Below are positions 20,135 to 21,980 of a stretch of DNA of 64,000 nt, one piece after another. The notes under the pieces were generated by a model. That model did no database searches and was not told where the DNA came from. It saw nothing but the letters and a program-made list of their open reading frames with translations. A program made the translations under genes and the position numbers. Position 1 is the first letter of the stretch; every line of letters begins with the position of its first letter. The DNA is from Antrihabitans auranticaus (GTDB taxonomy: Bacteria; Actinomycetota; Actinomycetes; Mycobacteriales; Mycobacteriaceae): positions 1,355,531 to 1,419,530 of the forward strand of contig NZ_JAEMNW010000001.1 in the NCBI RefSeq assembly GCF_016481275.1, written 5' to 3'.

Positions 20135-21178
20135 TCAGAGGTATTCGGTTCCCATCGCCGCGTGGACCTCGCCTAGTGTGCGTGCGGCGATTTCGTTCGC
20201 ACGGAAGTTGCCGTCTCGCAGGACTTCGCGAACGTAGTCCGGAGCACTCGCGAGTTCGGCACGCAGCAAACGATGGGGCGCGAGAAAGTCGTTGACCGCA
20301 TCGGTGGTGAGCTTCTTCAGCGCGCCTGCGCCTGCAGCGCCGATACCGGCCGCCAGTCGATCTTCGTCGATCCCGGAACACAGCGCGGCAGTAGTCAACA
20401 GCGCGGACACCCCCGGCCGCTTTTCGGGATCGAACGTGATCGTCCGCTGTGAATCGGTCGGAGTTCTGCGGATCGCGGCGGCTGTCTCGTCGGCGGTCAT
20501 CGACAGGCCGATCGCATTTCCGTAGCTCTTGGACATCTTCCTGCCATCGAGTCCGGGGACCTCGGGACTGGCAGTCAGCAGTGCCTGTGGCTCAGGGAAG
20601 ACGTCGCCGTACCGCTCGTTGAAGCGGCGGGCAATCGTCCTGGTCAGTTCGATGTGGGGGAGGTTGTCCTTCCCGACAGGTACGAGGTTGCCTTTGCAAA
20701 AGAGGATGTCCGCGGCCTGGTGCACCGGATACGTCAGCAATAGCCCGCTCAGCGCGCGGCCCGATGCAGCCAGTTCCGCTTTGACCGTGGGTTTCCGATG
20801 CAGTTCGGCCTCGGTCACGAGGCTGAGGAACGGGAGCAGTAGTTGGTTCAGGGCGGGGACCGACGAGTGGGTGAAGATCGTCGCCTTGTTCGGATCGATG
20901 CCCGCGGCCAGATAATCCAGCACCGCACCGTAGACGTTCCGGCGGACCGCACCGATGGCATCGCGATCGGTGATCACCTGGTAGTCCGCGAGGACGATCA
21001 CAGTGTCGACGCCGAGGTTGTGCAGTCGCACGCGTTCGGCAACGGTACCGAAGTAGTGACCCAGATGCAGTGGGCCCGTTGGACGTTCGCCAGTGAGGAT
21101 TCGGTAGCGGTGCGGGCGCGCGCTTACATCGGAGCGCAGGCTCTCGCTGCGAGCGAGGGTGGCAGAGAAGGAATTCAT
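20135..21178 (-). CDS. trpS: Tryptophanyl-tRNA synthetase
   Basis: A 347-residue class I aminoacyl-tRNA synthetase that charges tRNA-Trp. The HIGH-type signature is GPLHLGH (35-41), the KMSKS loop is exact at 214-218 (GRKMSKSYGN), and VPVGKDNLPHIELTR is the conserved dimer/Trp-site region. Length is normal. The ATG at 21178 has AGGAG (complement of 21184-21188) 5 bases before it. Upstream lies a short open frame with tandem Trp codons and alternative hairpins, one of which can hide this ribosome site, so Trp-dependent attenuation is likely. Whether this is the housekeeping or an auxiliary copy cannot be told. Confidence 0.95.
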   Translation of the reverse strand: MNSFSATLARSESLRSDVSARPHRYRILTGERPTGPLHLGHYFGTVAERVRLHNLGVDTVIVLADYQVITDRDAIGAVRRNVYGAVLDYLAAGIDPNKATIFTHSSVPALNQLLLPFLSLVTEAELHRKPTVKAELAASGRALSGLLLTYPVHQAADILFCKGNLVPVGKDNLPHIELTRTIARRFNERYGDVFPEPQALLTASPEVPGLDGRKMSKSYGNAIGLSMTADETAAAIRRTPTDSQRTITFDPEKRPGVSALLTTAALCSGIDEDRLAAGIGAAGAGALKKLTTDAVNDFLAPHRLLRAELASAPDYVREVLRDGNFRANEIAARTLGEVHAAMGTEYL

Positions 21179-21183
21179 GACAG

Positions 21184-21274
21184 CTCCTGAGTGGTCGAGG
21201 GGCTGCACGAACCGCGTTCACTCAGGATGACACCGCAGGCTGCGTACAGCCCGCGGACATGGTTAGACGGGCTG
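21184..21274 (-). promoter_or_regulatory. trpS attenuator-like leader structures
   Basis: On the minus strand three stems are possible between the leader peptide and trpS. Stem A pairs the complement of 21268-21274 with 21247-21253 (CAGCCCG with CGGGCTG). Stem B pairs 21247-21254 with 21235-21242 (8 pairs, one G-U, tetraloop TACG). A and B share a strand and exclude each other. Stem C pairs 21219-21226 with 21186-21193 (CCTGAGTG with CACTCAGG) and covers part of the AGGAG ribosome site at 21184-21188. The first strand of stem A lies in the peptide codons just after Trp-Trp, where a stalled ribosome would mask it. Confidence 0.65.
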
Positions 21275-21307
21275 CCGGAGCAGCCACCATGCCTGTCGGA
21301 TGTTCAT
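21263..21307 (-). CDS. Leader peptide with tandem Trp codons
   Basis: A 14-codon open frame, MNIRQAWWLLRQPV, starts with ATG at 21307 and ends with TAA at 21263-21265, 84 bases before trpS. Two adjacent TGG codons (21287-21289 and 21284-21286) are striking because Trp is rare. This is the classic layout of a ribosome-mediated attenuator. A Shine-Dalgarno is weak (GGGTG next to the ATG). Regulation of an auxiliary trpS by such a leader is known from Streptomyces coelicolor; here it is inferred from sequence. Confidence 0.7.
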   Translation of the reverse strand: MNIRQAWWLLRQPV

Positions 21308-21329
21308 CACCCGGCAAGGATAGCAACGC

Positions 21330-21980
21330 CTAGTCGGATCGGTCAGGTCCCGAGCCATAGACGATCAGCCAGATCGCGCGGCCGAGGGCATGTGCGAGTT
21401 GGTCGTCGCCGATCGGCGCGTCGCTCATGAAACCCACGGAGATCGACCGCTCGACCATCGAGGTGAGCACGATCGCCGTTGCGAGAACATCGAGGTTCGC
21501 ATCGATAGTGCCTGCCCGTTGTTCTGCTTCCAGTCGCGCACACACCACGGCCATGAAGCCTTCTACGCGAGCACGCCAGTATCGTCCGACGTCGCGGTCG
21601 TATGCGGACACCTCGTTGAGCGCAACGAGCACCCAGCGATGTTCGCGAAAGCCCGCGATCATGCGTTGCATCGCAGCGACGACGCTGACCTGCGCATCGG
21701 CGTGGTCCGCGCGCCACCATTCCTCGGCGGCACCGAACAGATCCTCGGTCGCAAGATCCGCCATGCGAATCAGCAGCTGACTCTTGTCGGGAAAGTATCG
21801 GTAGAACGTCGATCGGGCGACGTTCGCGGCCTTGGCAATACGTTGCACGGCCAGTTCGGTGAACGGCGTTCCGTCGGCCAGCAAGTCTTCGAGCACGACC
21901 AGGACCCGTTGCTCGAAGTCGTCCCGCAGATCGTCGACCCGCTGCTGGCGAACCTTCGGCGGCCGCGTCAACGACGGCAT
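21330..21980 (-). CDS. TetR-family regulator
   Basis: A 216-residue TetR protein: FEQRVLVVLEDLLADGTPFTELAVQRIAKAANVARSTFYRYFPDKSQLL in blocks gives the DNA-binding domain with the helix-turn-helix at about residues 44-66. The C-terminal domain contains EWWRADHADAQVSVVAAMQRMI and FREHRWVLVALNEVSAYD. It is divergent from the FAD-oxidoreductase gene at 22121, with a perfect 7-3-7 palindrome between them, so it likely controls that operon and itself. The ligand is unknown. Confidence 0.85.
   Translation of the reverse strand: MPSLTRPPKVRQQRVDDLRDDFEQRVLVVLEDLLADGTPFTELAVQRIAKAANVARSTFYRYFPDKSQLLIRMADLATEDLFGAAEEWWRADHADAQVSVVAAMQRMIAGFREHRWVLVALNEVSAYDRDVGRYWRARVEGFMAVVCARLEAEQRAGTIDANLDVLATAIVLTSMVERSISVGFMSDAPIGDDQLAHALGRAIWLIVYGSGPDRSD

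Follow-up and report, generated by a model that had tools for sequence, protein, structure and literature searches.

How the second tryptophanyl-tRNA synthetase gene of Antrihabitans auranticaus is controlled is the question raised by a short stretch upstream of it, within the 64,000 nt of DNA analysed here (the window). The gene (trpS, 20135–21178, minus strand) starts with ATG and encodes a tryptophan--tRNA ligase of 347 aa that matches TIGR00233 with 237 bits (cut-off 176.75 bits). The genome has another trpS besides the window copy, with 35% identity between the two. Of the solved structures, 1yi8 and 2a4m match the window enzyme best; 2a4m bears the name 'TrpRS II' (Deinococcus). Copies at 70–80% identity were found in nine further genomes, and at 56% in one, among 301 family genomes drawn from a larger group, and each of three other genomes of the genus gave a single trpS match. 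A second genomic copy, the few family genomes that carry it, and genus mates with one trpS indicate that the window trpS is an accessory, patchily distributed gene.

The original prediction started from a short frame with two neighbouring Trp codons upstream of trpS, read as ATG to TAA (21307–21263). The frame is present, as are the tandem Trp codons (TGG TGG, 21284–21289, minus strand), but its start is probably the GTG at 21310–21308, one codon upstream of the ATG at 21307, since relatives keep GTG or ATG in the column of codon 1 while codon 2 varies. So read, the leader ORF (21263–21310, minus strand) codes for 15 aa (VMNIRQAWWLLRQPV as coded), with the codons GTG ATG AAC ATC CGA CAG GCA TGG TGG CTG CTC CGG CAG CCC GTC TAA.

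A −10 element (TATCCT, 21317–21322, minus strand) lies 6 nt 5′ of the leader GTG, and 18 nt 5′ of the −10 the window sequence reads CTGACC (21341–21346, minus strand), a −35-like motif of the form nTGACn. When 75 window-type sequences were aligned, TAnnnT was found 6–7 nt before the leader start in all 73 rows that had enough sequence to be informative; L096, with a spacing of 9 nt, was counted to the second ATG. In S. lividans TAnnnT lies on average 6.3 nt from the start of the transcript, and the same source gives nTGACn as the weak −35 of Streptomyces and TTGACn for leaderless genes (PMC8079986). With a −10 at leaderless spacing in every informative row, the leader ORF is probably leaderless, its transcript starting at its start codon. 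A gene in the same orientation, coding for a TetR-type regulator with an EthR-like C-terminal domain (21330–21980, minus strand), stops 19 nt short of the leader, and CTGACC falls within its 3′ coding end.

Conservation among relatives, the check that had been proposed for this leader, came out in its favour. All nine family relatives at 70–80% identity have a WW or WWW leader; upstream of the relative at 56% (L012) a leader with tandem Trp was not found. Among 80 named actinobacterial loci (the best 80 of 250 relatives), 67 have a tandem-Trp leader, the automatic search for WW frames having given 68, of which that of L046 was false. In five Nocardia loci (L041, L044, L046, L047 and L048) the leader aligns and the stems are kept, and the Trp codons are partly Arg, as if Trp sensing were being lost or relaxed. 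The leader of L074 reads W-T-W, and that of L073 shows WWW, its start missing at a contig end. No leader element was seen upstream of the trpS relatives of L045 and L056, and a Trp leader was not found for the related enzymes of Bifidobacteriaceae (L105, L108, L109 and L111) and Collinsella (L126).

In all, 75 sequences make up the window-type set: 72 distinct loci, two records from plasmids, and the window itself; some of them are near-identical. At least two Trp codons are present in 72 of these leaders, in tandem in 69, and a single Trp in three. Tandem Trp arises in 0.6% of shuffled leaders, so the Trp-Trp leader is more than chance; a chance frame was ruled out by the conservation.

Downstream of the Trp codons, five strands of the RNA (all minus strand) can be laid out: strand 1 (GGCUGC, 21280–21285), strand 2 (GCAGCC, 21270–21275), strand 3 (GCGGGCUGUAC, 21244–21254), strand 4 (GCAGCCUGC, 21235–21243) and strand 5 (GUGCAGCCC, 21200–21208). 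Strand 2 starts 14–21 nt after the first Trp codon (17 nt in 49 of 75 sequences). Three stems, two of them exclusive, had been predicted, and they are borne out as 1:2, the 3:4 hairpin (GCGGGCUG-UAC-GCAGCCUGC in the window) and a stem over AGGAG at 21188–21184. The prediction had the leader and the stems, and missed the GTG start, the probable leaderless promoter and strand 5. Strand 2 is the partner of 1 or of 3. Strand 3 (conserved as GGGCUGYAC) is the hub of the element, with three conserved partners, strands 2, 4 and 5, its last letters forming the loop of 3:4; strand 5, a copy beside the ribosome site, either pairs with 3 or folds over the Shine-Dalgarno (SD) sequence. The pairings 1:2, 2:3, 3:4 and 3:5 share strands, and those with a strand in common exclude each other. 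The segment 21170–21310 of the window folds with an MFE of −65 kcal/mol, compared with −49.1 ± 3.9 kcal/mol for shuffled versions (z −4.05; 1 of 200 shuffles was as stable).

The pairings were scored in an alignment (A2) of 62 sequences: the window plus 61 distinct loci, the other 11 of the 72 having been excluded by hand as near copies or for odd spacing. Pairs were found in 99.7% of cells for 1:2, 97.8% for 3:4 and 91.0% for 2:3, in which the pair 49:72 is unpaired in most rows. Leader and stems together very likely constitute a genuine, conserved Trp attenuator.

The pairing of strand 3 with strand 5 is conserved to a similar degree. Pairs are present in 98.6% of the 558 cells of A2, compared with 26–50% when the strands are slid, and all nine are formed in 56 of the 62 rows. 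None of 500 shuffles reached the observed number of cells paired, the cells with double changes (14) or the covariation score. Double-sided changes occur in only two of the nine 3:5 pairs, a number attained by 194 of the 500 shuffles, and a tree-based test of 3:5 and 3:4 changes by independent contrasts was underpowered, with too few independent changes. Measured against shuffled downstream sequence, 3:5 reached p ≤ 0.05 in 66 and p ≤ 0.01 in 54 of the 75 window-type sequences. Thirteen members lie outside A2 (the 11 excluded, with L128 and L129), and eight of them form all nine pairs; four Brevibacterium among the thirteen form eight, and L057 seven (for the best nine letters downstream). The pairing takes in the loop letters YAC of 3:4, which are dispensable for the 3:4 stem.

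That part of the trpS ribosome site would be covered by a stem was also part of the original prediction, and agrees with the folds found. The SD sequence (AGGAG, 21184–21188, minus strand) lies within the 5:6 hairpin, with five of six SD letters paired in the window. In MFE folds from strand 5 to the start codon, it is buried (at least three of six letters paired) in 58 of the 62 A2 rows. Matched anti-SD/SD duplexes have a mean of −8.1 kcal/mol, compared with −7.2 ± 0.23 kcal/mol when permuted, and 0 of 200 permutations were as low. In the window type the SD has a median openness of 0.18, compared with 0.35 when the sequence 5′ of it is shuffled; openness is below the shuffle mean in 62 of the 75 sequences and reaches p ≤ 0.05 singly in only 10. 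Outside A2, with folds judged by eye, the SD is covered in seven of the 13 members. In L057 and five Brevibacterium it is, again by eye, uncovered or covered only by a weak stem. The five Brevibacterium loci L069, L071, L075, L098 and L104 have a divergent layout, a longer hairpin of their own following strand 5 and leaving the SD outside.

For comparison, relatives of the Streptomyces-type enzyme (E ≤ 1e-75) are found in 46 of 394 class genomes, and 30 listed loci were taken, together with eight of 151 plasmid records. The sequences fall into group A, the window type (n = 75); group B, the Streptomyces type (n = 15: two Streptomyces, two Embleya and 11 others); group C (n = 11); group D (n = 2); and group E (n = 1, Nonomuraea). 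Seven loci were left out of the groups (L126, L133, L143, L146, L147, L148 and L151); in six of them a leaderless Trp leader was not found, and L146 has a WW frame and was not classed. A U-run, counted in groups A, B and C as at least four U within 14 nt after the 3:4 hairpin core, follows 3:4 in one of 75 sequences of group A (L057), in 13 of 15 of group B and in none of the 11 of group C. With fixed hairpin cores, 3:5 reaches p ≤ 0.05 in 66/75 (A), 3/15 (B), 11/11 (C), 0/2 (D) and 1/1 (E). Median SD openness is 0.18, 0.69 and 0.25 in A, B and C, respectively, and the SD is more buried than in shuffles at p ≤ 0.05 in 10/75, 2/15 and 1/11. The U-run separates the groups clearly; SD burial and 3:5 distinguish them as groups, not row by row. 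A leader of this kind is thus found in the Streptomyces-type relatives too, accompanied in most of them by a U-run, in keeping with the Streptomyces comparison first drawn for this locus.

Group C is a separate clade with other letters (GGCCGCCGCG with CGCGGUGGCC) and an unchanged plan, in which all 11 sequences bury the SD more deeply than their shuffles do on average. As the plan is kept with different letters, group C is the best evidence that 3:5 is selected. Within group A, L057 (Glutamicibacter) is alone in having six U after 3:4, and its SD is uncovered; it may use termination instead.

Taken together, the sequence comparisons point to a Trp-responsive, ribosome-mediated attenuator of the accessory tryptophanyl-tRNA synthetase whose main output is translation initiation, a reading to which we give a probability of roughly two in three. 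Its parts differ in strength. It is very likely that the leader senses Trp; control of the SD is probably the main output, as had been raised as a possibility and as the buried SD of most A2 rows and the U-run after 3:4 in a single window-type sequence suggest; and 3:5 may well be the ON fold. The lack of SD burial in Brevibacterium left out of A2, and the presence of 3:5 in three of the 15 Streptomyces-type relatives, slightly lower our confidence in the translational model.

The proposed switch would operate as follows. With charged tRNA-Trp, the ribosome would reach the stop codon and cover strands 1 and 2 (or 1:2 would reform); strand 3 would then pair with 4 at once, and the leftover strand 5 would close the SD (OFF). 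When tRNA-Trp is uncharged, because Trp is short or the main TrpRS is inhibited, a ribosome stalled at the Trp codons would cover strand 1 and expose strand 2, so that 2:3 arises and delays 3:4. Newly transcribed strand 5 could then enter via the loop letters of strand 3 that 2:3 leaves free, giving 3:5, and the SD would emerge without a partner, allowing trpS to be translated (ON). Such a switch would be kinetic: the OFF fold (3:4 with 5:6) is lowest in energy, and timing during transcription would decide.

The energies, calculated for the part of the transcript that a stalled ribosome leaves free, have medians of −11.1 (2:3), −18.8 (3:4), −14.0 (3:5) and −9.8 kcal/mol (5:6). Formation of 3:5 excludes the anti-SD strand, but folds of lower energy exist: 3:4 exceeds 3:5 in stability in 60 of the 62 sequences, and only in three does 3:5 by itself outdo 2:3 combined with 5:6, so the ON state would rest on kinetics. 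Median path costs are 8.0 kcal/mol from 2:3 to 3:5, 11.0 from 2:3 to 3:4 and 21.2 from 3:4 to 3:5, and leaving 2:3 is cheaper toward 3:5 than toward 3:4 in 55 of 62. From these path energies, found by a search without pseudoknots that leaves uncosted the toehold route of strand 4 at the 5′ side of strand 3, it appears that 3:4, once formed, would stay, and that 2:3 would yield more readily to 3:5 than to 3:4.

Classical transcription attenuation would use the same strands differently, with 3:4 as a terminator (intrinsic without U, or Rho-assisted), 2:3 as the antiterminator and the SD fold as secondary. The stall geometry fits such a contest between 2:3 and 3:4, given the 17 nt spacing of strand 2 seen in most of the window type; the Streptomyces-type relatives share the plan, mostly with a U-run; S. 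coelicolor trpRS1 is said to be transcriptional; and L057, a member of group A, combines six U after the hairpin with an absence of SD burial. However, 74 of the 75 window-type sequences, the window included, have no stretch of four or more U in the 14 nt that follow the 3:4 core; for the window, the original prediction had likewise seen no strong U-run terminator. Transcription attenuation would also leave unexplained both the conservation of strand 5, which pairs with the 3:4 loop, and the burial of the SD, and we consider it rather unlikely for the window.

Translation could also be controlled through a cascade like that of ermA, in which 2:3 followed by 4:5 would be the ON state and the 3:5 match a by-product of strand 5 resembling strand 4. 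Strands 2, 4 and 5 do look alike, and the logic of ermA (1:2/3:4/5:6 versus 2:3/4:5) would accommodate them. Judged by eye, however, strands 4 and 5 share letters and are complementary only in short CG/GC matches, 3:5 includes 3:4 loop letters that the 3:4 stem does not need, and group C keeps 3:5 with other letters, all of which make the cascade improbable. A third alternative treats the leader ORF as incidental and ascribes control to a bound factor, which could be TrpRS, a tRNA (as in a T-box) or the TetR-type protein encoded next to the leader. It would draw on the position of the TetR-type gene on the same strand just before the leader. Against it stand the in-frame tandem Trp codons of 69/75 sequences and the Rfam scan of the window, in which no family, T-box included, reached the gathering score; the T-box was ruled out on this ground, and a bound factor in general appears very improbable.

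Returning to control of translation as the preferred reading for the window type, the groups can be placed on a tree of the enzymes (123 rows, quick method; L088 was dropped, its reading ending after 25 residues, and L083 carries the label 'none' only because another row has an identical leader stretch). Group A and four unlabelled rows form one clade (support 94), of which Bifidobacteriaceae and Collinsella are the sister (98). Groups B, C, D and E come together with L133 (83); C is one clade (99), its union with D is weak (48), and the deepest forks are weakly supported. Placed on this tree, the contrasts between groups in U-run, SD and 3:5 make it seem that the attenuator output changed at least once in the enzyme family. 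Tentatively, and with rather less confidence than in the switch itself, it is possible that these elements form one family of leaderless Trp attenuators, in which three partners compete for a single strand and the topology selects among them (2:3 blocks 4 and admits 5), with differing outputs: most Streptomyces-type relatives would terminate transcription, and the other elements would hide the SD.

The spread of the element beyond the locus was followed with a covariance model (R1). Within its own genome the one real hit is the window locus (E 1.8e-22); judging by sequence and ORFs, the hit ranked second (E 0.05) seems to be a chance match, and the remaining weak hits have E values of 1.69 and 5.21. 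The three other genomes of the genus gave no R1 site. At the level of the class, sites were found in six of 394 genomes, two of which (L119 and L120, E 1e-3) look like chance. In the family of one of the genomes with a site (G498), 16 of 398 genomes have a site, and 14 of the 16 sites precede trpS, the other two being L118 and L176. The element of G498 itself (L118, 1501–2104) is complete, with the leader MRNDRANWWRLQ, and precedes a gene for a GNAT acetyltransferase, not trpS; the only trpS of that genome lies at another site. This acetyltransferase (E ≤ 1e-30) recurs in six of 59 further genomes of the genus, and the 210 nt upstream of it hold a complete element in none of the six, although L182 shows a stretch resembling AWRWLR in that position. 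L176 (G1037) is a remnant, in which the leader and 1:2 are intact, the rest is unrecognisable and a trpS frame was not seen.

Plasmids of Rhodococcus and Microbacterium bear trpS relatives, and the leader is present in both of those read (L128 and L129). In plasmid B of Microbacterium sp. No. 7 (L129), the element and trpS directly adjoin an IS21 transposase pair, and plasmid H4 of the same strain has a trpS match with identity equal to that of the plasmid B copy.

Several known systems resemble the element. The trp attenuator of E. coli has tandem Trp codons and the logic of 1:2, 2:3 and 3:4, both of which recur here; the window element differs in lacking a U-run terminator, in possessing a fifth strand and a fold over the SD, and in being probably leaderless. 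In translational attenuators of the erm type, a leader ribosome stalls and refolding frees the SD, as is proposed for the window; in them the stall is drug-induced, whereas uncharged tRNA is proposed here, with 3:5, not 2:3 or 4:5, as the ON fold. In Streptomyces, Vecchione and Sello are said to have described ribosome-mediated transcription attenuation of S. coelicolor trpRS1 in 2010. The trpRS1/trpS2 attenuators resemble the window element in their short Trp leader before trpS and in alternatives of the 1:2 and 3:4 type; the Streptomyces-type relatives examined here differ from it in a U-run in most, a mostly open SD and 3:5 in few. Relatives of the window enzyme with 56–61% identity to it are carried by Streptomyces sp. 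Mut1, Streptomyces sp. BHT-5-2 and two Embleya, and lie in a neighbouring clade of the tree.

Classical attenuators upstream of trpS are predicted for some Streptomyces in PMC1262725, which names trpS2 of S. avermitilis. For S. lividans, PMC8079986 describes a trpL2 before trpS that is leaderless, as the window leader probably is, with two hairpins and no U stretch, suggesting that U-runs are not universal in Streptomyces. Mycobacteria have attenuators with leaderless polycysteine short ORFs (Canestrari 2020, cited in PMC13236596), which are likewise leaderless and rich in the sensed residue but differ in using Cys instead of Trp and in serving other genes; according to PMC13236596, the cysteine genes are cited as under translation attenuation. 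A literature search covering few subscription papers brought up no description of a trpS attenuator that senses Trp and hides the SD, a weak negative.

In Streptomyces, a spare TrpRS of this kind provides resistance to the TrpRS inhibitor indolmycin, as stated in two papers (PMC9437257, PMC6804068). This suggests that the switch could keep a mobile spare TrpRS silent until the main enzyme fails, and the plasmid copies with their leader suggest that it travels alongside the gene. If the proposal is true, one sensor, the leaderless Trp leader, would serve two outputs in one gene family, and the change between transcriptional and translational attenuation would be traceable, offering a natural comparison of both.
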